NCBI GenBank assembly: GCA_950295325.1
Contig: OX485804.1
Coordinates: 68,798,033-68,862,032 of the forward strand
From: Polytrichum commune
Lineage: Eukaryota; Streptophyta; Polytrichopsida; Polytrichales; Polytrichaceae
DNA: 64,000 bases
Direction: 5' to 3'
The notes below the pieces were generated by a model, which was not told the DNA's origin, ran no database searches, and saw nothing but the letters and a program-made list of their open reading frames with translations. Shown piece after piece: positions 12,737-64,000 of this stretch. The position numbers and the translations under genes were made by a program. Each line of letters starts with the position of its first letter. The stretch's first letter is position 1.

Positions 12737-13340
12737 TGTATCCCCTCATCATCTCTCAATGCCACCATATATTAAATTCCACCTATTTGAGTTTGTGGTA
12801 CCCTTTCTCCAATAACGTCCTCCACATGCTCATCACCTACATTTTCTTCATTAACCACATCCGGAGCATTAACAAACACTTTGTTGGGTCTCATTTTGTC
12901 ATTCATGGCTGTGAGCCCAAGATTGTTCCTATATGACTTCTTAATCTTTAAAATCTATAAAAAATCGCATTCGTATTGGAAAAGTAGTTAAAAAAAATAA
13001 AAGTTTGGATTTAACTAAGCTTGGCTTAACATCCACCTTAACACCTAACACGCCAAGCTTAGTTAAATCCAAACTTTTATTTTTTTTAACTACTTTTCCA
13101 ATACGAATGCGATTTTTTATAGATTTTAAAGATTAAGAAGTCATATAGGAACAATCTTGGGCTCACAGCCATGAATGACAAAATGAGACCCAACAAAGTG
13201 TTTGTTAATGCTCCGGATGTGGTTAATGAAGAAAATGTAGGTGATGAGCATGTGGAGGACGTTATTGGAGAAAGGGTACCACAAACTCAAATAGGTGGAA
13301 TTTAATATATGGTGGCATTGAGAGATGATGAGGGGATACA

Positions 13341-13997: not shown

Positions 13998-14753
13998 ACT
14001 ACAAGAGAATGTATGCTAGATTAGTTTGTATGTTTTTTATAATTTTATTTTAAACAATTAGAATAAAAAATAGCTATTAGAAATAACCATTTAAGATCCA
14101 TCTACCTTAATGAAAGTCTAAATCCATTCTAAATCTAAATGAGTAGTTGCGATTACCATTTGTAATAACTTAACCGTATTTTGTACTAATGATAATCAAT
14201 GGTGAAAACGCAGATTGGTACCCAAGGTCAAGGTTGTTGCCAAGGAGTTAGGCCCACAAAGCCAAGGGGGTTGGTTCATGATACGAAGGGGGTTGGAATA
14301 TGTCATGTAGGTATAGTGGTTAAAATGTACGGACCGGTTGGTAGACTTGGTACGTCGGGATCTTGGCATGCATCCACTAGGCTTGGCTTATGATTAATCT
14401 CAAGTTGGTTTAAGGCCTTGCATGGTGGGGCTTAATGAGACTATAAGCTCGGTTCCCGGTATAAGGTAGGCCTAGTATGTATTTAGTAAAGGTTGAGATT
14501 ATATAATAAATGAGCTGGTCCTCGGGTTCCTCACTCACTTTACTCGCCCGACCTAGCTAGTGGAATTAGGAAGCTACTAGTTCTGACTTTGACAATTCAT
14601 AAAAAAAATTATACTTCCACTGAAAATATTTTTTTATTTCTTTGAGGCTATTTTGGATTGAAATGCTAATATGATCCACTACTTTTCCCCCCGTAGCATG
14701 GCCACATGTACCCGCAATGGCTTAAAGTGTTGGTTTAAGCACCCTCTACCTTA

Positions 14754-17700
14754 AACAAATGGTAACTCACACTACCAGAACACAAGACTGTATCGGCCAA
14801 CGTAGTGTTTTGAAAAAAATATAAAATTCTACGTTGGGAGTCAAACTTAGTGCCATAGTGGATTTTTTTTTCTTCTTATAAGTGAATCATATCATATGAA
14901 GAGGAGAAAGAGATGTCAACCTAGAGGACATGAACAACGGAAGAGAGGGAATTATCGTATACGAGCATACCTCTCAAGGGTTGTTTATATCATGGACCAT
15001 GAAGTTGTCCCATGTCAGAAGGCATTTTTTTTCATGGTAACACTTTCATGGTCCAATTTCTAAGAAAATGCATTCTTAAAGTCTTTGGGCCTCTAACTAG
15101 GTGTAAATTGAATGTGGACCAAGAGAAGTGACCATGCACCAAAAAGTGGATGTGTTGATGTTTTAAATATATGTCCAGAATGGGCAGTTTTGGAAATGTT
15201 CTTCATGTTTGACCTTTTCCCCTTTTTTCCCCTTCTTTCCTTGTAACTATGAAAAACAAAATTGACATTATAAAAAAAAATTCAAATGTATTAAAACAAC
15301 ATTCCTCTGCCATGGTCCCTTGACATTTGTAGCAAGAGAATCTTTTGCCTCTCTCATTGCAAATCATGTTGCACCATGACAGTGGATAATGTAGGCCTAA
15401 AAATAGGCCTTTTGGGGACCTCAAGTTATGTGGTCACTCTTACTTTTTTTTCCTTGATGTAAACTAGAGTGGTACCAAGACGAGTTCAATGGCCAATCAC
15501 ATATTTTAGATGAGCAAGGGACAACTTCATGGTCCATGATGTAAACAACCCCTCATCCATCCAACATAAAAACTTGAAGCCCTATAAGTTTGTTGACTGA
15601 TTCATCTCAAATGACTTCAAAAGACTAAACCAAGATTTTGAAGCTAATTTTGATGTCAAATAAACTTTCCAAAAATAACCTTCATACTAAATATTATATC
15701 AAAGTTTTATGTTGGATAAATGAGAGGTATGGGGCATTGTGGCGGCCCAAGACTGAGCTTTGGTCTGTAATTTATGGTTTTAATGAGAAACAAGATCTCA
15801 TAAATTAAATATCGTATATATCCCATTAAATTGACAGAAGGGATAAATAAAATAAAATAAAAGTAATATTGTTGTGTGGTTTACACCAACATGAATGGAA
15901 GTCCGTTCTTCTTTGTCTTAATCATGTTTTACTAAGCAGTGGCAGAGGTGGAGAATCTATCATGGCAATAGGTTGGCAATCATTGGGGACTCCTTTTACA
16001 CATAGAATATTTGATCTTAATTTTGCCATGCATGTGCATGAGGTGGAGTCACATGTGCATTTAAGTAGCCATTCATGAATTGTGATGTTTTGAAGTCTAG
16101 GATTTGATTTCCTGCATTGATGAGGGTGTAGCATCTTGTGTGTTTGTTGGATTGGAGCTTTTGATTGTTAGATCCAAGGGTATTTATGAGATATTGTTTT
16201 TAGAGAAGATGTGTGACATACATATTTTATTAAAAGTGAGGTTCAAAAGACACCTAGAAAAAAAAGAAAAAAGAAACAATTTGGAGGTAACCAATCGTAT
16301 TTCAAATCTCTGATAGCTACTTTACCAAAATGGATATATCAATTCAAAAAATCAAAACATGAAATTATATTATATACCAATCTTGATTACCTATTTCAAT
16401 TATTATGCTTTTTGAAATATCATACCAATACACGTTGTCAAGTCTTGATCGATATTTGTGGAGTTGATAATCCTTCTCAAAAACAAAGATTTGAAGTAGT
16501 TTATAATTTACTGAGGACGACTGCGAAGTAACCGAATAAAATGTTCATTTGTACCAAACGAATGAGACGTGGTAGAAGTCTACAACGAGACGGGCACGAC
16601 TTATTTAACGGATATACTGCTAAAGACACCCAACGGAACAAACTTCCAATGGAAAACATATCATGTTGTGAAAGGGGATCGCAAGGAATAGCCAACCCAT
16701 AGGCGATACCCAACCGTGTCTTCAAGGCGCAGTTGAACGGGGAATTTGTTTATTATTATTTTATTTATTTTTTCATTTGTGAACGTGAGATGTAGGTGGG
16801 ATATTAGCCCGGGCGCGTTTGGCAAAACTCGAATGAAGTATCACAGTGTTGTGTTGAGGTGGCCCGTGGCTCTTATTATAACTATATATGGGCTTGGAGT
16901 TAAAGCATGTGGCCTCCCATGCATGTAGTTATCATGGAGGTGCTCGATCCTTTGGACATGGTTGTTGGAGAGGCATTAATATGGTTGGGGGAGTGACGTT
17001 ACAAGGTTTCGTACGATGGCGTGCATGTGTTGTTGAGACATTTGAGACTTCATGGCCGTAGTCCGGGTGACCTCTTGAATGTTGGTGAGGTGATATGTGA
17101 GGGGACACAAGGGACTTATAACTTGCATATAGAGAAGCCAAGGAAAAATGACATTAGAGTGAACAAGTGTGGCCATGTGTCTTTGATGTGGAGAGCCTAA
17201 TGAAGAATGACAATTGAGGACCATGTGCAATTCTCCACATATTGGACACATCAAAATTCGAGTTCTTGGGTGAGTTGGAATTTCAATGTCAATAATCGCT
17301 AGTGGATTTCAAAGTCATCAAACTTCACACTCCATGTTTTTGCATTATGGTGAGGACCTTAGCTACCGCTTTTGAATGTGGCCATGAGTCCATGACTATT
17401 CTAAATCCGCATCTGTTGATTCTATAAGACTAAATTGGACACTTTTGTCCATGCATCCACTTCTTCTAGGATACACATGATACATATGAGATGATCAACG
17501 TATTCAAATCGAATGACAATTTTTTCCCACTTATTGATTGATCATATAGATCCCCCGATTAATATGCTAACTTTACACCTAATCACACACCACTCAAATA
17601 TAAGTGTCCAATTAATATAAGTGATCAACGAATTAGATCCACTTATCTTAATGAAAGAGAACCGATGATAGGACTGACACAACATCCGTAGTGGGCCAAT

Positions 17701-37281: not shown

Positions 37282-39278
37282 TTGACAAAAAAACTAGAAG
37301 ACGAAGGTCAACAGCCGCCACATCGTAGCATATCACAAGCGCCGGTAGGAGAGGACATCCCCCCGCAACCAGCAGCACAGATCGACCCACTCGACCACAG
37401 ATTCGACTCCATCCTCCGCACCACCAACAAACCACACCATGGACAACAACATGGATCGAGAGCCTGCCAAAGGCACAAATCCCATAGGCCCCCGTAAGCT
37501 AGTGGCAACAATACCAGAAGCTCTACTTACAACACTCCGCTCCAGCTACGCAGCAAAAACAAATCTCTCCTTCATTGGGAGGATCCAAGGTAAGCACCCC
37601 GGGCTCAAGGCTCTCACAGCTTGGGCCCGAGACACCCTACACTCTTCCTTTGCATTTCTTTCATTAAAAGCAAATAACCTATTTGAAGTTACTTTCAACC
37701 TACCGGAAGGGAGGATCCATGCTCTCACGCAAACAGACCTAGTCTGCGAACATCTCCTTCTCTAGTTGGCAGCCTCATCTAGACTCGAAGACCACACAAG
37801 CTTCAGACCAGTTAGATTCCCCGGTGTGGTTGCAAATAGTAGACCTCTGCCAGATCCTGAGAGAAGAAACCTTCCTTAGAACGATAGGGAAGCAAATAGG
37901 ACAGGTAGTAGCAATAGATAACTCAGAGGCATATAGGGCAAAACTATCCGGTCCTAGAATCAGACTCCTAGTCAAAGATCTAAATACCCTCCCACAACCA
38001 GTAGTGGTACCAAGGCTAGATGGGGATGGGGTAGTAGAATATAACCTCGAGTTTAGTGGTCTGCCGAACCAATGCGGAAGGTGCCGATCAAGAGAACATC
38101 AGGTTCGACATTGCCCAAGGAAGGAGAAACGAAGAGGAGCACCAACGCACAACAATCATCAAGGGAGACGAAATCTTCAGCCACCGCCAACACCGACCTC
38201 GAACGCCCAGCAGGAGGAGAGCAAACAAACCCTAACCCCAGAAGTCGAACACACCCGGCCGCCAACAATCCTTACGCCAACACTCCCAACAGGAGCACCG
38301 GAGGAACCACCACCACAGGCAGCTTCCGACGACCCAAAATCACCAACAGCGCCAATACTTACGCCCACACAACCCGTAGCAACACCAGCGGACTCTACAC
38401 TGAATCAAACCACCAGCGAGCCTACATCTCCGACAACAGAATCCACAATACTCCAGACCCTTCTACCTAATGAAACCAACTTCCGACACCTTCAAACACC
38501 CACACAAGCTACACCCACAAAGACACCCCCACCGAGACGAGCAAGCGAGACGGTGCCACCAAACACCTTTGTCTAGAGAATGAAACATGCAGGAGAACCC
38601 TCTACCGACAAAGGCAAAGGGAAAGGGAAACTTAGTGAGTCGGCACCACTGACCAGACAGGGGTATAGGTCGGGTCAATTAGCGGAGGACTTCTGGATAG
38701 CAGTGGGCATGCCGAACACACCACAATCCCAAAAGAAAAAGCTCAGAGTGATACCTTTCCTCATCAACCAAAAAGCAGAATACCTGGTGGACAAGAAGGC
38801 AAAACCTCTTAGTACTATTACAACAGTCCAAGTAGCGGAACAGCTGGCCGGCATCCCATGGACCACCCACAGAGCACGGCAACATGTAGTAAATGAAGTC
38901 GCACAATCTCTACATAAAGTGTTGGTCTTCAACAACACCAACACCTCCCCTTTTCAAAAATGGACACAAGGAGCATGGTACGCCAGATGGAACCAATCAG
39001 AAGGAAAACATACATGCACCCTGTACGTACATATCACAGTCACAGAGCAGAAAATCAAAATCCGCAAAGGAAGAGACCTTGAGTGGACGAGATTACCTGA
39101 AGCAACAACCACAATCTGCATCGATTCGCCACCAGAAGCTATACAAGATGGTCAAGATATGGAGAAGTATTGGAAAGACATGACGGAGTTCCCAGAACCC
39201 ACCCACCACACTGCAACGGCAGTGGCCACAAGCAACTCATTCGCGGTTTTGAGCCAAGAGGGGGCAACTACCTCCTAG
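37282..39278 (+). pseudogene. LINE ORF1 (Gag-like, DUF4283 plus CCHC), broken
   Basis: This is the RNA-binding ORF1 protein of plant L1 elements. The first part (37439-37765) reads PEALLTTLRSSYAAKTNLSF and GRIHALTQTDL, like the DUF4283 domain. A frame change near 37760 leads into 37824-39278, with a LVKDLNTLPQPVVVPRLDG segment, then a zinc knuckle CGRCRSREHQVRHC (38074-38115; C-x2-C-x4-H-x4-C), then a long Pro/Thr-rich spacer (38180-38560). A TAG at 38574-38576 interrupts the same frame, which then continues through a basic stretch (KGKGKGK) and a C-terminal region of about 200 residues with tryptophan-rich motifs (WTQGAWYARWNQSEGKH), unlike the short ORF1 tails I know. It ends just after ORF2 begins. 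Confidence 0.8.
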
Positions 39279-41461
39279 ATCAAGCCAAACACATGAAAGG
39301 AGACAGAATTACGTCAGCTACCCAAAACGTCAGGTGCTTAGGCCAAGGCTTTGCGGGTAGAAGGAAAAGAAAGGAACTGAAAGATCTTTTTAAAGATACA
39401 AACCCCCCAGCAGACGTCATACTTCTGCAAGAGACAAAAATTTCAGAGGATGCAGGACTTAACCAAGCACGCTTCATAGAACATAAAGGAGGAATTAGTT
39501 TATGGAACGAAGCTACCTTTTCAGCGCAATCTGCCCGATACAAAGGTGGGACAGGGATGATCCTCTCCGAGCGGATGGTAGAAAGTCTAACACACCATGG
39601 AGTGGTCTACCCCGGGAGAGCGCAGTATGCAACATTCCAGCTTAGTCCACATATACACATAGGAATCCTTAATGTGTATGGCTTTAGTAACACAGGGCCC
39701 CGAGCAGTCCTCTGGAATCACCTAGCTCAGGTTGAACTACCAGAAGCCATATGGATACTAGCAGGGGATTTTAACAATATAGAGCAAGCTAGAGATAAAC
39801 AGGGAGGGAACTCAAAAACAAACATTGATCGCAGAGAACTCGAAGCCTGGAACCACCTCCTCATACGACTAGGGGCTCGAGATGCCTTTAATCTAAGAAC
39901 GTTTTGCAGACAATCTGAAAAGAGATTTACATGGTCAAACACACGTAACAATGAGGTGCTGATACAATCCAGAATAGATAGAATATATGTCCCCTCCCAG
40001 ATAGAAGACATAGGTGGTACCATAGAAATCCTCCCAACACTCCCAGATGTATCGGACCATGCAAGTGTTATACTACACTTTAGTGATGAACCCAAGAGGA
40101 AACCAACCACCCCGCACTTCAACAAAGGCCTTCTGGCCAACCCTGATAGCAAAGCACAACTCTTGGCCACCTGGAAAGCCACTATAGAAGACGCCTCATA
40201 CACAACATGGAACCAGAAAGTAGTAGCAGCCAATAGCGCCATACGACAGAAGTCCATAGAACTAACCCAAAACCAAAAGAAGAAGTGGAAAGAAACTTAC
40301 CAAGCCCAATTCGAGGACATCAAGTTGGCGGAAGCAAAGCTCCAATGGAATTGGGAATCTCGGGAGGCGAGGAACCGGCTTAGCGATGCACAAGTAGCAA
40401 TACATGAGGTAAGACAACAAAAATTCCAATTTCAAGAGAGTGCTATACTTTCTAAGTGGGCGCGAGTAGGGGACAGGTGTACAAAAGAATTCTTTGAACA
40501 CCACTCAGGATCCAAGAAACCCACCAACATCACACAGATGCAAGATGGAGACAGACGCATCACAACCCAACAGGAGATCGAACAACATATACTACACTTC
40601 TACGAAAACTTATATTCCAGGGATGAACAAGTAGAAGCAAATGAAGAAGCTCGAGCGACATGCTTTAACCTAATCACCCAAACAGTGTTACCTGAACACA
40701 ATGCTGAATTAATGAAACCACTGTCGATGGAAGAGTTGAAAGAGGCGTTAAAGCAACTGCCAAGTGGGAAGGCCCCGGGCATAGATACTATACCCGCGGA
40801 ATTTTATCAGGAGGTATTGGAAGACATAGAACAGGATTTATTCAACTTCGTCTCTGAAACCATGAGCCAAGCACACATTAGTGAGGAACTCAATGTTAGC
40901 AAGATAGCCCTCCTACCCAAATCCGAAGATAGGCTACGCGTTCAAAACTATAGACCCATCTCTCTCTTGAACACCTTGTATAAAGTAGTTGCCAAAGTCT
41001 ACGCCAATCGTATGAAACCCTTGCTTCATCATTGGATACTACCGTCACAAACCGGATTCGTACCCAATAGATGTATCTTAGACAACATCTTTCTAGCTTT
41101 CGAAGCGATTGAATGGGCCCTAGAGAACAATCAGAATCTCAGCATGCTCTTACTCGACTTTGAGAAGGCATACGACAGAGTTAGCTGGACTTTCCTTAGG
41201 AAAACAATGGAAAGGATGGGATTTGTGGATACATGGATACAACAAGTGATGGCCTTGAACATCAATGCTTCGGCCACCATAATCGTTAATGGAAACCAAT
41301 CCACACCTTTCAAGCTCCAAAGGTCAGTTCGGCAAGGCTGCCCCTTAGCTCCCTACCTCTTCCTACTTACTGTCGATGTATTAGGACAGATGCTCCAACA
41401 CCCAACAAACAACGTAATTGGGCTCAAGCTACCTGATCACACCACAATAACCAACCAAATG

Positions 41462-41473
41462 TTCGCCGACAAC
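41462..41473 (+). other. Altered RT active site FADN
   Basis: The reverse transcriptase motif that normally reads F-A-D-D is F-A-D-N here, through AAC in place of GAC at 41471-41473. Both aspartates hold the catalytic metals in this family, so this copy's enzyme would be dead or strongly impaired even without the other lesions. Confidence 0.85.
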
Positions 41474-42876
41474 ACCCTCCTCCTTCTTGATGGAACACCA
41501 ACCAACATGGATAGAGCAATTGAAGTGATCAACAAATTCGGAGAAGCCTCAGGGGCAAAGCTTAATCTACATAAGTCAGTAGGACTTTGGGTGGCCACAA
41601 TAGAAAGACCGTGGCAGTGGGGGGAGGAAACAGGATTGAAGTGGCTGCAACCAGGCGAGGTTACGAGATACTTGGGGTATCCCTTCGGGATACACATACC
41701 TCAAAAAGAAAAAGACGGCAAGATGCTCGGCCAAGTCCGGAAACACCTGCATCGATGGTCCAGCGCTAAACTCTCATTAGCAGGCAGAATCATGATAGCA
41801 AACCAGGTAATTCTCTCCTCAATTTGGTATCTCGCCTCATGCACAGATCTTTCGGGACATGCACTGAAAATAGCTAGAGCCACAATCAGGAATTATGTAT
41901 GGTCGGGTAAGAAGGAGTTCAAGGCCAGAGCCAGGGTAAAATGGGACACAGTTGTATTACCAATTGTTAGAGGAGGGGTCAAACTTCTTGACCCACAATG
42001 GCAAGCAGCGGCTTTCCTAGTGAAACTTCTTATCAGGGGCTTGTCAGTAGGGTACGAACCATGGAAATCTCTGGTACAGTATCGGGTAGCGCAGACAAAG
42101 CAAACGAGAAGAGGGAAATGGCCATCTCATGCAAACTGGGTAATGAACTCACCAAAATTGGTCGGCCAAGGATCCACAATGTGGCAAGGGGTGATGAAGG
42201 CTTGGTGCACGATACAATCCGGCCTGGAACAACAAGAACCAGTCAAGTGGTCAGAAATCAACCGGCAGCCCCTGCTTGGCAACAGACTCCTTACAAATGA
42301 ACAGGGCATTCAATGGGGCCAAGATCCCAAGACAAACCTGAGAGGCTGGATGGAAAAAGGCCTCAAAACGCTACAAGACCTGGCCAGAGCAGACGGCCAC
42401 GGATGGAAATCCCTCCCAGAATTGCTCCGCTTCCGCAGATCAGCAAGAACTACCCAAACATACAACCAAATGATAGCTAGTGTCCCGTGGGAGGCAACAC
42501 CCAAACCTGCGGTAACACCACGAGAGTGGTTAGCGAGCAAAGAAGAAGGAGGAAAAATCGAGTTCGTATACCACATCACTGATGACACAAAGGCAAAGCT
42601 TTACAAAAAAAGACAAGACAGGACAACTACACCTCCTTGGCACAGATCAAAGATACCCAGCAGAAGCCCAAGAGGTCCGGATCATCCGCACAGGGACACC
42701 ACGACGAATCGTCTTCGACTACAACCCTACCGACGACACAGAGGAGGACCAATCGCTCTGGCTATGGGGTACAGACTGGATAACGAACCTAGAGTGGGAC
42801 CCCAAAAACTGGAACTGGAGACGAATTGGAGTCCTCCCAGATACCATAGTGTTGAACTACTCAACAAAACGGGGAT

Positions 42877-45041
42877 TGTGAGCCCAAAAGGGTGCCCACA
42901 TTTAGTCTTAGACCCTTGAAACGTTAGTTGATGCACTTTGAAGTAGCATGTTACTTCACAAAAATATAAAAAGAGTGAAATGTTAGTCTTAGAAGTACCA
43001 TGTTGTAAGAGGCTAGGATGTGAGTTGTTATTGTGTTTTTACCTTCGGAAGGATTTGAGTGAATGAGGATAGGTAAGGAGAACTTGGATTGAGTAGTTAG
43101 TGAGTAGGCTAGTACAAATGGATGGAGACAACCAAAGTGACTCAAGAGGCAAGTGCATTCGAATTGGGATGAATGGAGGATCACATGGAGCGCACAAGTG
43201 GACCACCTCATCATGGCCACTTAATGGGGAAGGCCCAAGGAAGAATGCAAGGTGGAGGATAAGCAAATTCTCAAAGCACCAATCAAATCACGAGTTAAGC
43301 ATCGTGGTTTGAATTAAGTGGTGAGCGACGATTTGGGAAAGTAAGGGGAGAAAGTTATGGCGGCGGAAAGCGAAGGAGGCTAAGTTTGGGTTGAAGCATC
43401 CCAAGTTTGGTAAAGTGTGGTAGGTAGAAAGCCAAGGCTAGTTAAATGTTCGAATTAGGATCCTTGTTGATCATTTGAGGGAGGAAGGCTTAGAAGATAG
43501 GATTGGCGCCTACTAAGTAGGAGGAAATCTCAAGGGCTTATCGTGAGCCTTGAGGGTGCTCACCCCCTCAAGCTTACTATATAATCCCTCATTCTTCCCT
43601 CACTCATCCTCTCTTTCCTTTGTGCTCCAAGGCACCCCACGAGTTATAAGTGTGGGTGTGGGAAGCCATATTGGAGCACATGTGTGTGCTTAGTTTTTAG
43701 TTTGAGAGCCAAGGCTTGTTAGCCTTGAAGAGGGCTTGACCTCTTGGTAGAATTAGTGTTGACGTGAAGGATTTTAAAGTTAATTCATGATTCCAATTTG
43801 TGGTACTTAAAGTTCATGTTTTGAATACACGTGGTTGCAAGTTCCATGTTTAAGAGTTGAGCACTTGATGTTGTGATGAGTGCAAAAATATACTTGTGTG
43901 GATTAATTAGTCTTAGTGAAGTTAGGAAATTCTCTCTCCCCCTCTCCTTTCTAGGATTTTAGGATTTTAGGATTAGAGAAGAATTGTGTGATTAGAAAGG
44001 GGTTGTTAGTAGAATTAGGGAAATTAGGTAGGAAGATTAGTTAAGGGCTTGAATAATTAGTGAGGTAGTTGGGGATTACAACTACAAAGTTGTGGGTTTA
44101 TGAAGGAGCTGGGTTTATGAAGGAGCTGGGTTTGTTTAGTTAGAAAGTAAAGAGCTGGGTTTATGAAGGACCTGGGTTTGTTTAGTTAGAAGCTAAGGAG
44201 CTGGGTTCATAAAGGAGCTGGGTTTATGAAGGAGCTGGGTTTGTTTAGTTAGAAGCTAAGAAGCTGGGTTTATGAAGGAGCTAGGTTTATGAAGGAGCTA
44301 GGTTTATGTAATTAGAAAGTAAAGAGATGGGTTCATGAAGGAGCTTAGTAGATAGCCTACCTAATTAGCTCATAGACAAGTAGTTAGTTACATTATGTTA
44401 GTTAGTGTTATGTGTGGCTTTCACAAGTAAATGTATTTGAGATTGACTATAGAGAATAGTGTTTTTTTTAACACTTGCATCCTCTCTTTAAAAATAAACC
44501 ACGTGCACAACTTAAGGGAGAATGTGGAGCACTCTCGCGATGGCAAGACAAAGGAAGCAAAGACCAAAGGTGCGAGGGAGAGATTGACATAAGTCACATA
44601 AGTATTTCTTAATACTTAAAGGCTTATGTACGGTATGGAGACACCAAGTGAGACCTCTTATAGTAGCGATACGGAATACACAAGTGATAGTTCAAGTGGT
44701 AGTATAGAGTCAACGGCACGGACTCCATTTAGGAGAGGGATATCCTTAAGGGCTTGTGTAGCTAAAGCAGCCGGATGGACGTTAGAAGCAAACAAAGACA
44801 AAATAGCACCCGAGCATAAGGAGGTTAAAATAACATAGTTAACTTGTGCATTCTCCACATACGTATTGAAATCGTACATTGAGTTGTTAAAAGTGAAATT
44901 CCAGTTAAATCCAAGACCACTTGAAGGGTGAACCTTGCACTATGGACTCATCCAAGTCCAAATCCAATACCGCGGAGGAATGTGAGCCCAAACCCACTAC
45001 TCGGACTACGGACGCTTAAGGGTGGGGGGTTTGGCCTCACA
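42877..45041 (+). mobile_element. Solo LTR, copy B (2165 bp), inside LINE ORF2
   Basis: Ends are TGTGAGCCCAAA and TTTGGCCTCACA, with a 5-bp target duplication GGGAT (42872-42876 and 45042-45046). Removing the LTR and one duplicate rejoins ORF2 exactly as T-K-R-G-Y-R-V-A-L. The plus-strand orientation is supported by a TATA-like CTATATAAT at 43577-43585. It shares its ends and several interior blocks with copy A (3011-4672), which is inverted and about 500 bp shorter; much of the difference lies in a variable tandem array. No gag or pol lies between. It is younger than the LINE. Confidence 0.88.
44103..44350 (+). repeat. Minisatellite inside LTR copy B
   Basis: An imperfect tandem array of GAAGGAGCTGGGTTTAT, often followed by GTTTAGTTAGAAGCTAA, with about eight units in several higher-order spacings of 17-50 bp. 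A differently composed array occupies the corresponding place in copy A, so this part of the LTR expands and changes quickly. Confidence 0.75.
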
Positions 45042-45804
45042 GGGATATAGAGTGGCACTTAGACAAAACAACCATCGCATGCAGGTTGATGAGGAATTAG
45101 AAGCTGCAGGTTATAACAGCAAGGCTAGAGCCAAATTCTTTAATAGAATTTGGCACCCTTATCTCCTACGAAAAGTATCAGCCATGCAATGGCTGATACT
45201 CACAGGGGGACTCCCTGTGGGAGCTTGGAGAGAACGCCTTGGGCTTGACAGCACGTGTCAAATCTGTCCAATCCCAGCTAGAGATACTCTTCAACACTCA
45301 TTCCTAGAATGCCCGGAAGTATCTAGAGCCTGGCCCCTATTCCGAAAAACCCGAAGCATCGCAGGCCACAGACAAGCCTACACAAGGTGGAACGAAATCA
45401 GCAGAGGTCTGCTAACGGAGCCGGACGGTCCGAGTATGGAGGAGGACCTACAATGGGATACAGCAGCAGCATTCACGCTGAACATGGAGACTCCATGGGA
45501 TATACTAAGAGCACAGCTGCTATGGGCGATATGGTGTAACAGAGTCGCTCACTCTTTTAGCGAGAAACAGTTTCATCTCGGTACAGTTCTATGGCAAGCC
45601 TGGCGCAACACTATTTATTGCGCCATGGAAGCCTATAAGGAACTATTTAGACACAAACGGAACGAAGAGAAGAGGCATGAAATGATCACCTGTTTCCAAA
45701 ACATTTGGACCACTGCGGAAATCTTCGGACGACTTGGAAACTCCGGTATCAAGTGGAATCTTACACCACATCCAGAGTTCCTTCCACCGGATCTTGGAGC
45801 CTAG

Positions 45805-46965
45805 GTAGCACAACCAATTCAAACCATTCACAGATCCCCTTCGCCGGATGCAGAGGCCGATTTCATAGCGAGGCAAGACCTTCCGGATATCATACACGAC
45901 TTCGTCCAAGACATAGGCAACAACTGGCAACCTCCCAACTCCCCCCCAGAAGAGAACATGACAGGAATCAGCCAAGCACAAGAGGAGGAGGATCCGAATG
46001 AGATAAGACTACCAGAAAACGTGGACGAAATAGATGTTGATGAAGGGCAGCATTCACCCAATGCCAACGCACAGGGTGCGATACAAACACACGCAGACAC
46101 AGGCCTACAACAGTCTAAAGTCCTACCCAAGAGCAGAAGAAAAAAGAAATGCACCTTCGGACCCCACAAGAGACAGGGGGCTAACCAGGGACAGGGGTCC
46201 CCTCCGGCTCAAGAAAGCAACACAACTGATGCGGATGAGATGAACGAACTGCTCTGAGAAATCGATGCAGTAAGGGAAGGAAGCAGTGGTGGTGAGGACC
46301 CACTCCCCCCCCAACGCACCAAACCCATCAGCCGACCGAAGAAAAAATGTACCTTCGGACCTCACCCCAGAAAACCACAAGGAGACACGTCACCTGTGAT
46401 GGTAAGCACACCTCCCACTGCAGGTAATGATGCACCTGAGCAATCTCAAGTACGGATCACTAGAGGGCAAGCACTCAATGGCAACCAGCCATCCACATCA
46501 CATCAGGGGGAGAACCCTCCCACCGACACCTATCAATTCCCAAGAGCGGACAGGGTGACACTGATGCCTCCAGGGCCATCACATCGATCCCCTCTGGACC
46601 ATTACAAGGCTACAGCGGAGAACGCCCCGCAACCCAATCCCTACCGCTTCAAACTTCAACGCCTCGGCCTCACTGAAGAAGAATTCGAACAACGAATCAC
46701 GGACGAAATCAATGAAGGGCTACGGCAAGCCAAGGCTGAACGCCTTCTCGCCCGTGTCATGCCAGAAACTGACACACCTAATCCCGTTCCCCGCATCCTC
46801 ACCAAGGAAGACTGTATGTGCCTCTTCCGTGCCACAGGGGTTCCACCTCCGGGACCTCTATGGGGAGTCTACCGTTGGGCGGCGGACCTCGGCCATGCAC
46901 GCTTCGCCTTCAGCGAAGAGCTGGAAGAGCACGAATATCACCTGCTTGATCAATATGACTGCTGA
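45805..46965 (+). other. C-terminal extension of LINE ORF2 with repeated KKKCTFGPH motif
   Basis: Downstream of zf-RVT the same reading frame stays open for 387 codons with one internal TGA (46255-46257). It has an acidic, proline-rich stretch, then two copies of a basic motif: SRRKKKCTFGPHKR (46132-46173) and SRPKKKCTFGPHPRK (46330-46374). A further spacer is followed by a compact C-terminal domain (about 46640-46965) with LQRLGLTEEEFEQRITDEI and PLWGVYRWAADLGHARF. The lysine clusters with Cys and His could be a nuclear localisation or nucleic-acid-binding module. I know no such extension in ordinary plant L1 elements. Frame conservation over 1.1 kb suggests that it was coding. Confidence 0.65.
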
Positions 46966-54250: not shown

Positions 54251-55639
54251 TGGGTTTCTGATCGTGTGAAGCGTTTGGGTTGGGCAAAAAGCACCGAGGT
54301 TTAGGATTTATTATTTGTTATTTATTATTTGGGTTTATTTGGTCTTTATTCTGGTTCTGGAATAATTGAGACGACAGATTCTGGGTTTTCTTCTCTTTTT
54401 CTTTTTATTGTGCAGTGTGGATTCTTTTTTTTTGGGGGAGCGTTTGTTTTTGTTTTTGATGAGTGTGAGTGGAATGTGCGAGCTTGGTGATCATGGGAAA
54501 AGTATTGGGCGATGGGTGGGTTTAGTGGAGGTTTTTGGTGGGGTAAGTGGAGATTCGCTATGGCTGGAATATTTCTTTTTGTCATTTTAGTACGGCGAGT
54601 CTTCGAGGAAGTCGGAAAGATGACTGTGAGGAAGTGGTCGTCGTAGATTGAAATTACAACTGCTTTTCTGGCACAAGACTGCTCTTTTACTCCGAGTCAA
54701 GCGAGTGTGGATTAAGAGTGTTGGCTAAGCATGTGAGTGTGGACTGAATGAATAAATGATTCGAAAGTGGCAGCTTCGGTGTTTTTTTTTTATTAGACAA
54801 GAAGGCTGCTAATTGAGCACGAACCTTATCCGCCGCGAATTTAAAGCGGTCTGCATGGGGTTAACTTTTAGTTGTGATGATGCGGAGGAGTGACTTGGGG
54901 TTCTTAGGCGACATGGATATCAACTTGGGGTTAGGGAATTCACAGTTTTGGCATTGTTGTTTTGAGAATAAAAATGATTTAGGGGTTTTCATAGCGGTGA
55001 AAGAAGTCTGTTGAGGCAGGAAGAAGCTGGCCCTCAAGAAAATCAGCTGGCTTGGACAATTATCTCGTTGCAGTTCTTTGCAAGAGTGCTATCTTGAGAG
55101 TGAAGGTGAAGGAGTCTGGAGAAGTTTATCCTCAAATGCTTCTATGTTGTCAAGTGTAGGTCGAGGAAGAATCAGGATCCAAGAATGTGGCGCCCATTAT
55201 CAAGTTTTCAAGAGTGGATTCTAGGAAGACAAGATATTCAGAAGCCAGTTTGAAACCAGGGTATGTAGAGACATGGAATGAGGTTATGGCGGACATTGAA
55301 AACTAGTGCAGAGAAAAACTCACCCAGGGCAGTATGGAGGCATCTGTTTCCAGGAGCCAGGTTTTGGGGTCAGGATCACAAGCTCTAGTTGTAGGTATGG
55401 GTTAATTTGGCTTACCCAGAAGGCAAAGAGGGGGAAGAGATAAGAACTGCAGGGAAACCTCTGCAATAAATAAACAGGTCACATTATGACATCAGGGGTA
55501 TCGAAAATTTCAGCTCAAAGTGGAATAGGGATGGAGAGTCTGTGTTTTGTGGGATTAGAGTGGATGCCAAGGTATTGATGCTGGTTGAATCTGGCTATAG
55601 GGAAGGAAGTAGACAGGGCTAAGGCAGAAAAGGGCTACC
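54251..55639 (+). other. Probable 5' leader intron(s) or untranslated leader
   Basis: This is T-rich sequence with intron-like composition in its first half and G/A-rich sequence in its second half, with no coding frame related to either domain of the downstream gene. An in-frame TAG at 55610-55612 closes the reading frame 27 nt before the chosen start codon. Confidence 0.4.
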
Positions 55640-58600
55640 ATGAGGACCATTGTGGTGGCAGGAACATGCAGCGGGGTAGGCAAGACCTGCATTGCTGTTG
55701 GCCTTATGGCTGCCTACACCCGGCGGGGTCTGCGTGTCCAGCCTTTCAAAATTGGACCAGGTGTGTCCATAGTTTCTACTTTTCGTCTTCTATAATTCTT
55801 ACTACATCTCTGAAACGAGTTGAAGATCAATTTTGGGCATGATTTTATCAATTGTAGGAACAGTTTTCTGGAGGGATTCTGGTTGAGAGTATATCTAGGA
55901 CTGACATTAATGTCTATGTTGCAATATGGGGAAGACAGATTTCCTAGATCCCATACATCACAAGGCTGCTACTGGTCGCAACTCGTACAACCTAGATGGA
56001 TGGATGCTGAGCAGGTATACATGCACTAAAAATTGTTATTTCACTTTTGGTGTTTAGAGTTGTTCAAATGAATGAAGTTGAGTATTGCCACAACCAGGAC
56101 ATTAGGCTACAAGGTTGATATTTTGTCTTGTAAGACAAAAAGTGAGCCCAGTTATTAAACACAACCTCATCACTGTTGAGAACTGGGGGATGTTTATGGG
56201 GGTAGGTTTGCCTTCCTTGTGTGCTAATCTGTTCTTAGTGTAAGTGACTCAATGAGAAAAATGCGCGTGCTGTGTAGGGATTTGAACCTGGCCTGTTTCC
56301 AGCAGCGAATGGGAAACACAGATATTGCAATTGTGGAGGGGGTTATGGGTCTATATGATGGTCGAGATGGAAAGTCTGACGTGGGTAGTACTGCTGAAAT
56401 GGCAAAGCTGCTGTCTGCACCGGTTCTACTGGTGCTTGACTGTTGGGCTTTGGCACGCAGTGCAGCAGCCATTATTCATGGCTACACCACTTTTGATCCT
56501 GCCCTCAAATTTGCTGGTGTTGTTTTCAACAAGGTGCTTACATGCCCCACGAAGAGCTTTACTTTTGTGTGCCTTTCTTTCACTAAATTAGGTCACTTTC
56601 TGCCCCTCTTTAAAGCTGTTTGTTACAGTGGGATTACGTAGCCTCAGTTTCTGAGAAATTCATGGAGCTTTTCTGTGTATCACGCAGTTCAACTTTTCCT
56701 CTGTAGGGGTGTTTGCACACGACCACTGTTCTGATGGTTGGTGGTTGTAGTTTACTTTCTTGAGTTCTAATTGTATAAAGAGGGATTATGTGCATTAATG
56801 ACAACCACAACCATAACCACTCTGCCTTGCCCACCTACAATGGAAGGTGTAGTTGGGAGTAGCTGTGATGGTTGTAGGTTACATCTTTTGGTTCTGTATT
56901 GTTTGTAATTACTATGTGGCAACAGTAGAGAACTTCAAGGCCAAAGCATGGGGGAGGATTTTATAAGAGGCAATTGTGCTTGGACAAAATTTCCACTAGT
57001 ATCCATAGAGGGTTTGCCTCCACTCCACAGATTGCACCAATAGGAAGGATGATAATTGGGGTCAAGTCCACATCTCAAATACTTCTACACCTTGTGTGTA
57101 AATGAAAAATATTGTAGTTGTGTTGAAACTGGGCTTGAACCACAACCACAATTACTCAAGTTGTTGTGTATAAACACCCCCTGTGTGTAGGACCTCTTTG
57201 GGCTGGTAGTGGGCCAATCGTCAGTTTACAAGGAGGGTAAGTGGTTAATAAACTTTCAACTAGAATCTGTAAAGTGTGTCTCCACTCCACGGATTGCACC
57301 AATAGGAGGGACAATAGTTGAGCCAAAATTCATATTTCAACTACAACTACTTTCCTGCCAAATCTTGGCGGTGTCCACTGAAGAAAATACTCATAGTTTG
57401 AGAAACCAATCTTCAAGCTTGGGTCCAGTCTTGAGTCCGAAAGTAAGGTTCATTAAGGGATGTTTTGGACTCCGAGTTCTTTGGTCCCAGACCCTAATGT
57501 GGACCAACCCTAAGTATTATAGCGATACACACACCCACTTGCAATACTGACTTGACTCTTGGCAGGTTGGTAGTCCTGCACATGCTGCATGGCTCACGGA
57601 AGCAGTTCACACAACTGAACCTGGTATCAAAGTCCTGGGAGGGGTGCCAAAGACAGCTGGGATTCAGCTGCCGGAAAGAGACGTTGGTGCACATATACCA
57701 GAAGATGAGGACATGCCTTTAGACTACATTCAGCAGCTTGCCGATCTGGTGGAGCTTCATGTCAACCTGGATGCTGTCTTGGAGTCAGCTGCTGTATGTG
57801 AGGCTTCAAATGGGAGTTTGGTGGAGATGGATCTTGCCTTAAGTAGGGGTCCTCCATCACCGCCTCCGTATGCAAAACATGTCCGTATTGGAGTTGCACG
57901 GGATTCAGCCTTCTGCTTTTACTACCATGCCAATCTTGACCTCCTTGAAGGTAGTGCAATCTTATCATTGTACCACTCTAGGGAAATTCTATATTAAGCA
58001 GAGCTCATACTTAACAACAGTCCTGACTAGGATGTTCTGGGAATTTATGCATGGAAAGAATCTTGACTATGGTAAGTGGGCCTTCAATGGACGCTTTGGG
58101 CTCTGCACCCACCTCTTGAAGGATGTGAAACACACAATTAGTGAGAGATGATTGCCATTCCCAAATTGTGTCTCTAGCCATTTTCCTCATAATTTTTGGA
58201 GCTCATGAGTATCTTGTTCATTATCAAAGTGAAGATTCTTAAGCTCATTAAATGATCATATAGCACCCCCACCCCCACCCCCACCCCCCAATTATGTTGG
58301 CCATTGAGCCTAGAATGGTTAACAGATTTTGAGCATGTAGTCCAATTTCTTTTAAACACATGTCTTTTTGGTGTCTGTACTGTACCACTCGAGTGTAGGT
58401 GTCTAATAAAGAAAAATAACTGAGTAAGGCCCGCATACCTTAGATCCTAAATTTGGCAGTAATCAGTAGTTCATCTTGTCTGTTAGAAGTTTAAATCAGT
58501 ACCGTTTCTATATTTGCAGAAGCTGGAGCAGAGTTGGTATTTTTCTCGCCGCTGAAGGACTCCCTTCCACCAAGGCTTGATGCATTAATATTTGGAGGAG

Positions 58601-61600
58601 GTCACCCAGAACTTCATCTGGAGCAGCTTACAGTCAATAAACCATTATTGTATGCCATACGTGCTTTTGCGCTTGCAGGAGGCATTGTTTATGGCGAGTG
58701 TGGAGGTCTCATGTATTTGTCACAAGGCATTGAGGTATTCTTACTGTCATTATTCTAAATGCTTAGAATTCCCCAATGGAAATGTAATATGTTCTTGCTG
58801 TTGATACCTTTCATCATTTCACCTACTTTGCCAGATAAAACCAATATAATAATTCTGGTCAAGGGCAAAGAGTCCCTTTTGCTCATAAATCTCAATTTTA
58901 TTTATTTATCATTATTATTATTTTTTTTTCTGGTGGTTGGGTTCTTTTGTACAGGGTGCAGATGGACAGCATTTTCCCATGTGTGGTGTATTTCCTTTCT
59001 GGACACGTATTCAGCAAGTCATGCATATTGGATATGTGAAGGTACTCATGGGATTTGATAATCACGCCAGTGCAGTCATTGATGATTATTTTTTTTTGTG
59101 ATGTTCCTTCTATAGTAAACATGAGATCAAAGCTCAGGGAGGACTAAAAATTGATATGGAATCTTGATTCTCGCAGGTGACACCTCGTGATGACTGTGTA
59201 CTCTTCCCCGCAAATATTGGGGAAATTCGAGGACAAGTCTACCATTTCAGTGAGACTTTCTATCTTGCAGACAACGGCATCACTGATTGCCCTAGAGGGT
59301 ACAACACTTTTCTTTTTGATGTGCTTGTCTATATGTACACTGATTACAAGGGTCCCAGTGAAATGTCAACTCTGAATTAGAGATTGCCTAACTACATATT
59401 CTGGTTCAGAATACCTATTATGATTTCACCATTGATGTCTAGGTGCTTTTTTCTTTGGGTCAGTGTACGTTATGTTATGTTTGACAGTGTCTTAGCTGAA
59501 GCTGGTTTGAGCTGTGAGCAGGTTAACTATGAGAATTGAAAGCGACAAAGCTGTAGAGGAGCTTGAGGGTTACATGCAGGGCAATGCTATGGCAAGTTAT
59601 GTACACCTCCATTTTGGCAGCAATCCTACTGTTGCACCTGCATTTGTGGAGAGGTGCAGGTACATCTCAATTTCCATATACTTTGGACGTGAATTAGAAT
59701 TATGCAGTGCAGCAACTTCTGAAATGAAAAGCCTTAGGCTCTAGAGCTCAAACTCGCAATTTTTGGGAGTGTGATACTCGGAGTTGACAAGCTTTTATCT
59801 AAAGCTTCATGCCAAAGAATGTGAGGAAGCCCATTGGCTTGGGGCCCACAAAAAGAGTACTCAAACTCTTGATATTTCTTAGATACCTCATGGAGGTAGC
59901 TTAGGATTTTAACGGAGAGCTTCTCGAAAATGACCAAGAGCTTGTCATAGTTGTTCCACATGCGATCCAAAGATGCACAATCTAAGCGTTGTAAGCCCAG
60001 TACAAAGTATAAACTCTCAAGTTAAAATTTTGTTGTAAAGTGGATCTGAATGAACATGGGTAATAGGCTCCTTTCCACCAATGAAAAGGCTCCCTTCGTC
60101 CAGCTCTCAAGCTCTCTACATTGATCATGGTAAATATTGTGGTCCACAATATTGAGCTTGATGTCTACACTAAACACATTTGGGATGGTATTGTGGGTAC
60201 AAACTATTTACTAGGCCACACTATTCAACTTCGAAGGTCCATGTTGTAGGCTATAATATTTCTATTGGAATGAAAAGAGTGCATTTGAAAGACTTCCAAC
60301 CAAGTGGAAGGAGGTGGCTATAGCATGGGGGCCTCAGAAGGGTAACTAGGGTTGCACAACATTTTCCTATGTGATTGTGTATATTATGGGCCACACTGTA
60401 GGATTGGCAGGGTAAGAAACACTGGACAATCGGCCCACATTATTTACCATAATTAGTGTAAGGTAGATATGCCTGATTTAGTTACTTATCTTATTCAGAC
60501 ACCTATATTTGAGTGGTACATGGTTAGGTGTGGCTCAACAAATGGATACAAAAAAGACAAGTGTTTAAAAGAGATTGGACTATGTGCTCAAGATATGATA
60601 ACCATTCTAGGTTTAGTAGTCAACATAATTGGGGGGACCTAGATGAGTGTTTAATGAGCACAAGAATCTTCACATTGATAATGAATAAGATATTCATACG
60701 AGCTCCAAAGATTATGAGGAAAGTGGCTACAGTCTTGATTTGGATTTGCTAACTATCTCATACTAATCTCGTGTTATACATCCTAGGAGAAGTGGGATGG
60801 TTGGAAAAACTAACCATTTAAGACCCATCTACCATAGGGTGAAGGGGGTCTTACTCATGGTATCGTATCTATACCTCCCGCCCTACATCTATTGACCCCT
60901 CTAATGATAGATTTGTTTTGTTTTGTTTTTGGGTTACAGAACAAACACAACAAAAGCAGCTGCTGTAGCTGCTGCGTCAGCATCTGCTGTGGCAGGTGCA
61001 GGTCCTGTTGCTGCTGCTGCTGCTGGAGCTGCAGCAGCAGCAGCAGTAGCAGAGGCATTGGGGGAACAATCACAGGAGCTTATACCTTGTCATTCGGGTG
61101 TTACAATTACAGAATTTGATCCCACAGCACACTATGCAACACCACAACCACCTGCAACCAGAGCCATAATGGGGCCCCCTCAAGAGGTGGAAGCTGGCTC
61201 TCAAAGGCGCATTTTTGAGAGAGTGAGGTCTTTATCTCCCTCGACATTTTCAGATGTAATGTTTGAGGCGTCGTCGGGCCCTCAGGAACCAGGGATCCGG
61301 CGCTGTGAGTCTTTTGATTTGGGTAGACAGAGTGTAGTAGGGAACTGGGCTGCGGAAGGAAATAATAAAAACAATGGAAGGTTAGTGAGGTCAGAGTCTG
61401 AAGTGTGGAGCAAAACAGGTGGGCATATTAGTGGGAGTAGTGGTTTAAATTTAGGGCATCATCGAGGAAATAGTTTTAGTGATTACTCAAATCATAGTAA
61501 TAATAATAATCATCATGATACCTCTAGAACAACAGGGCTCTCGAATCATAGAGGTAGTGCTGATGCTGTACGTTATAGTGACGATAATCATTCAAACTCT

Positions 61601-64000
61601 AGTTTAATGATGGTAAATGGTAGAGGTAGTGGGGGACATTTCCAAAGTCATCTCAAGGCAGATGTTGCATCAGGGAAACTCAACATCCCCTCAGTGTTTT
61701 CCCCAAGCAGGAAATTAGACTTAGAAAGGCCTCAGAATGGCGAGTTGACACATAATCTCATCTCAGAAGGGGTTAATAGAGCTCGGCTTCTCAATGGGAG
61801 ACAGTATCCGCAAAGGATAGTGTCCTTATTGCCATCCGCTTCGGAAATTCTAATGCAGATTGGTAAGTTTCTATTTTTCTCTTCTTCTTCCCACTTGACT
61901 TGAACTGTCAACTGTATGATTGCAGTGCACTTCTGTAATGTGGGTGGTTGGAGGAAAATAGTTGTTTGGATCTAGAATGATAAAACCATGTTGGGAACTC
62001 CTTTCATTCGGCTCATGTTGATTTTTCTAAACCAGTGATTTCTGTTACTTTTTTGGGGCTCCTGTTAGGAGTTTGTGGACTGACATTTAGCCGATTCACA
62101 GGTGCAGGAGATCGACTGATAGGAGTTACAGATCTGTGTGACAAACCGCCTGGGGTTAGATTGAATCGCGAAGTTGTGAGTTCGTGTTACTTTTGGTTTG
62201 GTTCTATTGCTGTAGATCCCTTTCATTACTGTTCTGCTGCTTTTCGTTCTGCTGGAATTCTGTTACCTGAATAAAAAACTTGGCCTCTAAAGTCTCGAAC
62301 TTTGGTCTCCTGGGGACCAAGAAATTTAAATGTATATGGTATTCAAACACCAATCAGGCAATTCATGACCATTCAGACACTGATAGAGCATAATACAAGT
62401 ATTGATTCACTTTTGTTGGTACTTGAATAGGTGTGTTGGAGCAAGATAGACACTGCCTCTATGTCTAGCAAAAATGTGGACTTTGCGGTAAGTGATCTCT
62501 TATACCCATATTCTAGAAGTTTGAGTCAGTACACTCTATTCTTACTGTCAAGAGATTTTATGGATGAATCAAAAGGAACAGCAGTATCTGTCTCTCATGG
62601 GTTGTCAAATGTGACTTAAGGTTGGAAACTGCAGTTAGCAAAAGATTGATGCTATTCTTGTAGTGGAAAAGTAAATTAGTATATATTAAGTGAAAGTAAA
62701 TGATGTGTAAATATTCTCAATTGTGTTGGTAGCTAATCACATATGATGGGCACTGAAACAGATGAAGGCTTTAGCAGCCAAGAAGGAGAGTCCTTTTCGA
62801 CTGGATGTCTCATGGCTGAGCAAAGCAAAACCTGATCTCATCATTTCCCAGGTAGTAGTTACCTCCTTGCGGACAATTTTCTGAGCTTGACTGCGAATTT
62901 GTTCCCCACTTCTGAGTGGTATTAATTTGTATTGTCATGCTGTTTTTGTTGGAAGTAGATCGTCATGATGAGTATATGACAATGTGCCAGTTGTTTGTTC
63001 TGCAAGAAATTTATATTTTGGTTTGGTTTTGACTTCAGGATGCATGTGACAACTGTGATATTCACGACTGTACTCTCACGACTATGCTAGCAAAGGCGGG
63101 AGTTGTTGGCAAGAACTACACCAAATTGGTCAAACTTGGTCCTCGAACGGTGATAGGCTGCACTTTTTGGTCACATGATAACAATTTGCACCTGTGTTGC
63201 ACTGTTGAAATTGTCTAGATTTCATGTAAGGGTGCCAGTTTATGTGTTCCACAGTTGTGTACACCTCACTGATCACAGGAAGCCTTTACTTTCCACATAT
63301 ATATTAAAGTTATCCACAAAGTGCCAAAAGGGAGGGTCTTTCTCAAAATCCTGTTTTAAGTATTCTTTATCAAGTCCTAAAATAAACTCAAGGAAGATTT
63401 GGGTTTTGGGTCAAGAAGAGTGGATTCGTGGGTTTGGACCCAATCTAAAGTTTGAGTCAATGACCACCCCCCTGCTGGAATAGACATCACTTTCCTCCAC
63501 TAGGGCAAGTTGATGCCACCCGCTTGTTATTTGGAGTCAAAAGGAGGGTCCATGATTTAGGCTCCACATGTTACATATAGAAATCCTGAAAGTTCCTTTA
63601 CTTTCTGGATAAACTCATTCTCACCCTTAAAAACCCACTTAAGAAAGTCTGGATTCCCTCAAAACACATGGTTACTTTTAAGGATTACTCATGTCTGTTC
63701 ATAAATTTTTGCTCCTCTACTTACCTGACCTTTAAATGAGCTTCAAGTCATGAAGTTTTGAATTTACATTTCTAAAGGGCAGTTCTCTGTTCTGTGCTTA
63801 ATTCAGATAAGTGGGATGTTAGCATCAATAATCACCATAGGAGAGGCTGTCGGGCTTTATGCTGAGGCATGCTTGTTTGTCGATTCACTTCGAGCCCGAC
63901 TTCGACGAGTGGCTGCAGCTGTGGCATCTAAAACGAGGCCACGAGTTTTGTTACTGCAAGGGATTGATCCACTCCTGTTGGGCGGCCACTGGGTTTATGA
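55640..64000 (+). CDS. Cobyrinate a,c-diamide synthase fused to BtuF-like corrinoid-binding domain (3' end beyond window)
   Basis: Exons: 55640-55760, 55939-56014, 56278-56533, 57566-57950, 58520-58734, 58955-59041, 59177-59298, 59522-59659, 60940-61862, 62102-62175, 62431-62487, 62762-62851, 63039-63149, 63807-64000+. All 13 introns are GT-AG and phases agree, giving 949 residues so far. Residues 1-467 are a full CbiA/CobB enzyme, which in bacteria amidates the a and c carboxylates of cobyrinate using ATP and glutamine. Residues 468-755 are a low-complexity linker. From 757 a BtuF-type domain follows. The start is set by an upstream in-frame stop and by the P-loop beginning six residues in, so there is no transit peptide in this model and a cytosolic product is inferred. 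All catalytic residues are retained and no frame break exists. A bacterial origin by ancient transfer is likely, and contamination is excluded by the introns. The plant function is unknown. Confidence 0.9.
56985..57350 (+). repeat. Direct repeat in intron 3 of the CbiA-BtuF gene
   Basis: Two diverged copies, about 56985-57095 and 57232-57350, share CTCCACTCCACAGATTGCAC / CTCCACTCCACGGATTGCAC followed by CAATAGGA and a similar 40-base tail. The upper copy lies 250 bp from the lower one. They are non-coding and may be remains of a mobile sequence duplicated within the intron. Confidence 0.65.
58160..58415 (-). repeat. Dispersed repeat in intron 4, inverted relative to 60490-60735
   Basis: On the minus strand this reads the same sequence as 60490-60735 on the plus strand: shared words include AAAAGA-ATTGGACTA, AACATAATTGGGGG, TCTTCAC-TTGATAATGA and AAGATTATGAGGAAA, in that order. 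The two intronic copies, 2.3 kb apart and inverted, could pair in the pre-mRNA around exons 5-8. A poly-CCCCCAC run (58265-58288) is private to this copy. Confidence 0.75.
60490..60735 (+). repeat. Dispersed repeat in intron 8, inverted partner of 58160-58415
   Basis: See the intron 4 entry for the shared words. The copy lies in the longest intron (59660-60939, 1280 bp), which otherwise shows no coding content. No terminal repeats or target duplication could be assigned, so the element type is unknown. Confidence 0.75.
60940..61800 (+). other. Low-complexity interdomain linker (exon 9)
   Basis: Exon 9 opens with an alanine-rich tract (about residues 473-508, with runs of five and six Ala), then a polar region rich in Ser, Asn, His and Gly. 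It includes basic-Ser motifs that look like kinase or 14-3-3 sites: [14 protein letters not shown] and RSLSPS. Its frame is maintained and its splice sites are normal. Bacterial homologues of either domain have no such linker, so it arose in the plant lineage. The GCA/GCT repeats also create a glutamine-rich antisense frame, which is an artefact. Confidence 0.8.
61799..64000 (+). other. BtuF-like cobalamin-binding domain (exons 9-14, residues 757 on, incomplete)
   Basis: The sequence [19 protein letters not shown], then [19 protein letters not shown] is the start of the periplasmic-binding fold of BtuF and related corrinoid-binding proteins (family words RIVSLxPSxTE, LGxGDRLVGV, CDYPP). It continues with [20 protein letters not shown] (family LxxLxPDLVxxQ), [15 protein letters not shown], then [20 protein letters not shown] and [20 protein letters not shown] (family RVLxLEWLDPLxxAGHWV). 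In bacteria such proteins carry a signal peptide and feed BtuCD; here the domain is internal and has no secretion signal. Its end lies outside the window. Confidence 0.88.

Follow-up and report, generated by a model that had tools for sequence, protein, structure and literature searches.

Among the described proteins most comparable to the one reported here are two enzymes and two binding proteins. The cobyrinate/hydrogenobyrinate a,c-diamide synthase CobB/CbiA (PRK01077, TIGR00379) and the Ni-sirohydrochlorin a,c-diamide synthase CfbB (NF033195) share enzyme family and chemistry: both act on the a and c side chains, CobB/CbiA amidating those of corrin and CfbB those of Ni-sirohydrochlorin (PMC7242693, extract). 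BtuF is the periplasmic B12-binding protein. The algal cobalamin acquisition protein CBA1, which we liken to the present case by its description, is eukaryotic and has a BtuF-like structure, but it carries a predicted signal peptide and is membrane-associated, and the extract describing it mentions no CobB domain (PMC10828217). According to the same extract, almost 80% of the streptophyte species examined carry CBA1-like sequences, most of them without METH, and these homologues have no known role, a tetrapyrrole ligand being suggested by the authors. In another survey, CBA1 was not found in mosses or liverworts, and METH in land plants was accepted for hornworts only; its main text covers METE, METH and 11 further B12 proteins, and the words "BtuF" and "cobyrinic" are absent from it (PMC11439496). 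The accessible portions of PMC7242693, PMC9490259, PMC12713380 and PMC2667541 hold nothing on a plant CobB.

The DNA analysed (hereafter, the window) is a stretch of 64,000 nucleotides from the moss Polytrichum commune (contig OX485804.1, positions 68,798,033 to 68,862,032, forward strand), in which an initial annotation had recognized a gene fusing a CobB/CbiA enzyme to a BtuF-type domain. The general view is that land plants neither make B12 nor use it, which makes the fusion surprising. The initial annotation knew of no description of it, and we found none either among the matches listed in the open-licence literature, represented mostly by titles and the beginnings of abstracts. Enzyme family, fold and bacterial partner family all belong to known kinds; their fusion in a land plant is new as far as this literature goes, though it may be present, unremarked, in plant gene annotations.

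The 14-exon model with consistent phases that had been proposed was rebuilt from the sequence and gave 949 complete codons up to base 64000. Exon 14 extends 148 bases past the window, and the final exon after it, 258 bases long, closes with TAA, so that the complete spliced model comprises 15 exons with an open frame of 1084 residues, and all 14 introns are GT-AG. The exons lie on the forward strand. Exon 1 (55640..55760) contains the start codon and the P-loop GTCSGVGKT of the CobB domain, which continues in exon 2 (55939..56014; D41 and D44 in DFLDP), exon 3 (56278..56533; E86 and D93 in EGVMGLYDG) and exon 4 (57566..57950). The CobB glutamine amidotransferase domain occupies exon 5 (58520..58734; Cys340 in GECGGLMYL), exon 6 (58955..59041) and exon 7 (59177..59298; His403 in YHFSE), and the CobB domain ends with ASYVHLHF in exon 8 (59522..59659). 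Exon 9 (60940..61862) encodes a linker (about 60941-61807) and, from about 61808, the start of the BtuF-like domain. The latter extends through exon 10 (62102..62175; the first family cysteine, 787, in LCDKPP), exon 11 (62431..62487), exon 12 (62762..62851), exon 13 (63039..63149; the cysteine pair 851 and 854 in DACDNC) and exon 14 (63807..64000 and the 148 bases beyond; GGHWVYE, also supported by a search of the moss genome), whereas exon 15 is outside the window (L002:752-1009, stop codon included).

An in-frame stop at 55610-55612, upstream of the first ATG, rules out a contiguous N-terminal extension, and no transit peptide is visible at that ATG. An upstream exon adding N-terminal sequence is possible, and the protein is probably cytosolic. 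A search of the genome (408 Mb, 64 contigs; E 0.001) with the protein gave 15 matches, all 15 at this locus, and the gene is thus single-copy at the sensitivity of such a search. GRAS sequences bear out that it is a plant gene, as originally proposed: the genome gave 53 exon-level matches, confined to contigs C1 to C7, whereas 14 prokaryote controls gave none. Seven such contigs would suit a moss with seven chromosomes. Contamination or an assembly artefact might be suspected, since the nearest relatives found are bacterial and a perfect palindrome elsewhere in the window could reflect an assembly fault. However, the gene has 14 GT-AG introns, it is on a 70 Mb contig, the same window holds LINE-like frames, and the searches made disclosed no close bacterial match (about 40% identity for the BtuF-like half and at most 49% for the CobB half); we give this explanation practically no credence. 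Most likely, judging from these sequence features, this is a genuine nuclear land-plant gene of bacterial ancestry encoding one protein of 1084 residues, and we are highly confident that the gene and its anatomy are correct.

By sequence, residues 1-467 form a complete CobB/CbiA a,c-diamide synthase. In the Pfam check proposed with the initial annotation, this half reached 68.2 bits with CbiA (cut-off 25.4; E 8.6e-19) and 106.8 bits with GATase_3 (cut-off 27; E 1.4e-30), and among NCBIfam models it scored 456.8 bits with the CobB model PRK01077 (cut-off 254; E 7e-137) and 408.3 bits with TIGR00379 (cut-off 261.4). With the CfbB model NF033195 the score was 382.9 bits, below the cut-off of 560, and CfbB identity of the enzyme half was rejected; for comparison, a CobB from an acidobacterial corrinoid operon scored 555.8 bits with the CobB model and 469.3 bits with the CfbB model. 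A stretch of 21 residues highlighted by the initial annotation, Cys340 and His403 were all found where it had placed them. Across 70 bacterial CobBs, 54 columns are near-invariant (conservation of at least 95%). The plant protein keeps 49 of these, including GKT 14-16, D41, D44, E86, D93, C340 and H403, and departs at residues 190, 191, 193, 400 and 402. The P-loop, the Asp/Glu motifs, the cysteine and the histidine are taken to be catalytic, and amidotransferase activity has probably been kept. The plant version thus resembles CobB/CbiA in having both domains, a score over the cut-off and these motifs, but differs in being nuclear, intron-bearing and fused, in the five replaced residues and in that other corrin genes were sought in the genome and none was found, which is a weak negative.

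The CobB domain is joined in frame to the BtuF-like domain, as previously proposed, and the frame is intact, with the splice phases as the evidence for continuity between the domains. The linker of about 289 residues lies entirely in exon 9; it is Ala-rich and then Asn/His/Ser-rich, and matched no NCBIfam family at E 0.01. By eye, repeated Arg/Ser stretches were noticed in it (window 61200-61420), which are possible kinase sites. The junction bears on the alternative that the locus holds two neighbouring genes, of which the first, for CobB, would end shortly after exon 8 and the second would begin in exon 9 or before it. Read-through past the exon 8 donor would add 27 residues after Arg467 up to a stop at 59744, near the point where bacterial CobBs end, in-frame ATGs occur within exon 9 (the first at 61169 and 61259), and intron 8 is the longest (1280 bases). 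Against this, exon 8 has no stop of its own, its donor (CAG|gtacat) and the exon 9 acceptor keep the phase, the resulting frame stays open along the whole of exon 9, intron 8 contains neither AATAAA nor ATTAAA, and CobB and BtuF-like proteins adjoin in a few bacteria. On this balance, two separate genes are improbable, and we proceed with the single chain.

The C-terminal half (residues 757-1084) was less clear-cut than the initial annotation, which had called it a BtuF-type domain, supposed. In the Pfam check, Peripla_BP_2 (PF01497) reached 25.4 bits, just below the cut-off of 27.5, while tblastn against the bacterial loci was clear, with best E values of 5e-71 and 7.8e-59 (relative to the candidate loci only). 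What stood is the relationship to a bacterial BtuF-like family; what did not is periplasmic BtuF itself, whose model PRK03379 gave 18.9 bits against a cut-off of 234. Compared with the Chloroflexota locus L011, the half showed 39.9% identity over residues 3-327 of its own numbering, and it shares with the Chloroflexota members the CxxC and a common tail. Among columns conserved in at least 90% of the 87 relatives, all of which were used, 33 of 41 are kept in the plant and eight are replaced, E936Q, C989L and R1030T among them. The plant has three of the four family-invariant cysteines (787, 851 and 854), the fourth being L989, and, as a further difference from the family, its domain is fused to CobB. 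These replacements, together with a long branch, mean that its ligand may differ. The domain is internal in the plant model, and no secretion signal precedes it.

When bacterial and archaeal genomes were scanned once with a three-row alignment as query, at least 578 relatives of this domain were disclosed, of which the best 80 were kept; the best of these were Chloroflexota proteins at 37-41% identity, and in several of them the match takes in the tail as far as residue 327. In 45 of 87 relatives the match is preceded by no more than 15 open codons, and in 83 of 87 the nearest start codon lies within eight codons of it. The bacterial BtuF-like relatives thus look leaderless from their sequences. 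All four cysteines were invariant in the 57 aligned bacterial rows (of the 80 loci, 59 were drawn by choice, L046 was omitted and L039 was dropped for a stop in the cut), and the CxxC loop of the family corresponds to a gap in the two secreted BtuFs compared, which are from the same operons. Plasmid records annotate family members as "cobalamin-binding protein" or "ABC transporter substrate-binding protein", and the two bacterial members scanned, L011 and L170, reached no NCBIfam cut-off.

An AlphaFold2 model of the relative L011 (pLDDT 96.1) was used in a structure search, in which the heme-binding protein 2r79 (Z 24.2; 2.8 A over 267) and BtuF 1n4a (Z 23.3; 2.5 A over 239) were tied, with siderophore and iron binders close behind. 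A profile search of the PDB gave Vibrio BtuF as the best match, at 98.8 bits. According to the predicted model, the fold of the family is of the periplasmic binding protein type for heme, B12 and iron complexes, yet the family is leaderless. The likeness of the family to BtuF is one of fold and profile, and a difference is that 45 of the 87 relatives lack room for a signal peptide. Classic BtuF identity was rejected on account of the missed cut-off, the leaderless relatives and the family-specific CxxC loop.

The genomic context of the bacterial proteins connects them with corrinoid genes in some cases. In the acidobacterial locus L170 the order is PduO, BtuF, BtuC, BtuD, BtuF-like, CobB, CobQ, CbiR, CobU, CobT and CobS, with PduO, CobB, CbiR, CobU and CobT over the NCBIfam cut-offs and BtuC, BtuD, CobQ and CobS named by reading; its secreted BtuF missed the NCBIfam cut-off. 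The BtuF-like and cobB frames of this locus share a 4-base overlap, which suggests that they could be translationally coupled. The Chloroflexota locus L169 has cobB diverging from the BtuF-like gene, the two being 22 bases apart by match, with BtuF, BtuC, BtuD and CobQ (named by reading) beyond the pair, and the acidobacterial locus L020 has both genes in one cob cluster whose CobQ is over the cut-off. Both domains were within 3 kb of each other in 3 of 49 genomes having both, among the matches listed, and not near in the other 46; the figure of 49 is a lower bound, from a hand tally of searches of 149, 201 and 79 genomes. In genomes of several megabases, such closeness should arise by chance much less often than 3 times in 49. 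Flanks of up to 8 kb, many of them shortened by contig ends, contained one or more of eight corrinoid-biosynthesis genes at 6 of the 80 BtuF-like loci and none of the eight at the other 74. Of 42 of the 80 genomes, chosen by us, 18 gave a CobB match at E 1e-30 and 24, many of them MAGs, gave none; the long frames of L043 and L088, inspected by eye, included no CobB. The link between CobB and the BtuF-like family is real in places and not general. Corrinoid loci with a secreted BtuF plus a leaderless BtuF-like protein (L170, 4654-5631; L169, 6879-7781) were an observation apart, which points to a possible undescribed cytosolic partner in corrinoid metabolism. The plant fusion suggests that members of the leaderless family can act together with CobB instead of belonging to an importer.

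Each half was placed in a tree. In a quick CobB tree of 74 rows (without L111, L108 and L110, which are repeat or split genes, and with L109 and L165 below the coverage filter; the column count additionally left out L104, L107 and L118), the plant grouped (13 rows; SH-aLRT 96, no bootstrap) with a single Chloroflexota row, with acidobacteria and Nitrospira, and with four rows of the cyanobacterial phylum that are separate from the main cyanobacterial CobBs. In a careful BtuF-like tree of 44 rows, including 43 of the 87 relatives chosen by us, the plant was in a clade with eight Chloroflexota rows (100/99). Two origins were rejected by AU tests of groups that had been named after inspection of the quick tree: a main-cyanobacterial (plastid-type) origin of the CobB half, as a grouping with eight such rows (p 0.0007), and one Dehalococcoidia donor for both halves, as a grouping of CobB with seven rows (p 0.0015). 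The plant end branches are long (0.88 in the CobB tree and 1.81 in the BtuF-like tree) and the exact sisters of the two halves are for this reason unsure. The idea of a transferred bacterial module holds in so far as the two proteins adjoin in a few bacteria, but not in that the nearest relatives of the halves differ and the Dehalococcoidia grouping is rejected. Different nearest kin among the rows sampled would imply either that two transfers were followed by fusion or that the donor is missing from the sample.

We searched the moss genome for possible users of a corrinoid with a mixed query made of pieces of E. coli MetH, MetE and mutase and of bacterial PduO, CobB, CobQ and CobT. The 16 matches comprised five long METE matches on C1, nine short METE matches and two CobB exons from the window, and MetH, mutase, PduO, CobQ and CobT gave no match, a weak negative given that only two of the eight CobB exons were detected. 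A Pfam search of the genome for MetH and the PduO-type transferase likewise gave none, also weakly, as introns split genes; the PF01497 search missed the BtuF-like domain of the window itself, split by exons, and an MMACHC query had no match in any control. The lack of a MetH match agrees with the restriction of METH to hornworts in the survey cited above (PMC11439496, in the parts available). With no corrinoid user or other cob gene found, all weak negatives, no use for a corrinoid product is known in this moss. Given that the searches of this genome found no B12-dependent enzyme, the retention of a complete and apparently intact corrinoid-pathway enzyme would indicate new tetrapyrrole chemistry, or corrinoid handling, in land plants.

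In our view the gene most likely encodes a cytosolic a,c-diamide synthase for tetrapyrroles that carries a ligand-holding domain of its own. A tetrapyrrole or corrinoid acid whose acetate side chains are free would sit in the cleft of the C-terminal domain and be kept near the N-terminal enzyme, which would use ATP to activate the carboxylates and glutamine-derived ammonia to amidate the a and c acetates. The chances that the gene is real, makes one chain and is an active tetrapyrrole amidase are, in our estimate, somewhat better than even. As ligand, we rank a corrinoid from associated microbes first and the plant's own sirohydrochlorin second; the corrinoid is preferred because the known bacterial context of CobB, and in part that of the BtuF-like family, is corrinoid genes. 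Even so, we regard a corrinoid as the natural ligand only tentatively, at a little under even chances. The wider proposal, that some land plants possess a cytosolic enzyme with a built-in ring-binding domain and, with it, an undescribed tetrapyrrole-amidating activity yielding an a,c-diamide from a microbial corrinoid acid or from sirohydrochlorin, is rather doubtful. The product would be a modified tetrapyrrole not known in plants.

The same evidence could be read without any corrinoid, the enzyme half amidating sirohydrochlorin or another intermediate of the siroheme pathway and the BtuF-like half binding that ring or heme. CfbB, of the same enzyme family, amidates Ni-sirohydrochlorin (PMC7242693, extract), MetH, mutase, PduO, CobQ and CobT remained unmatched by a query that did match METE and CobB, the L011 model fits heme binders as well as BtuF, and several near-invariant positions are replaced in both halves. 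We nevertheless consider this unlikely, since the score stayed under the CfbB cut-off and since siroheme synthesis is plastidial, whereas no transit peptide is visible at the first ATG, which an in-frame stop closely precedes (an upstream exon being possible). Less probable again, and in our judgement very improbable, is that the protein is a catalytically idle relic or sensor, the fusion being kept for binding or regulation, or decaying. The long branch of the BtuF-like half, its replaced C989, E936 and R1030 and the lack of a partner pathway in the mixed query would fit such a fate, but the 1084 codons contain neither stop nor frameshift, and neutral decay is not expected to leave 49 of 54 near-invariant CobB columns together with the motifs taken as catalytic. 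The preferred reading is, then, that of the active amidase.

Other features were noticed in the window and its genome. Frames resembling those of LINE-type elements, a zinc-knuckle protein followed by a long endonuclease and reverse-transcriptase-like frame, lie at 37743-46965 (by reading only), and 44103-44345 and 687-945 are arrays of tandem repeats whose units measure 34 to 118 bases. At 11319-14758 there is a perfect inverted repeat with two arms of 1707 bases, 100% complementary and 26 bases apart, each of which carries the same 221-residue frame in opposite directions; it is either a very recent inverted duplication or a fold-back artefact of the assembly. Outside the window, four of the long METE matches (C1:74.586-74.671 Mb) mirror each other exactly around about position 74,628,351, which suggests a large inverted duplication or an assembly fold-back.
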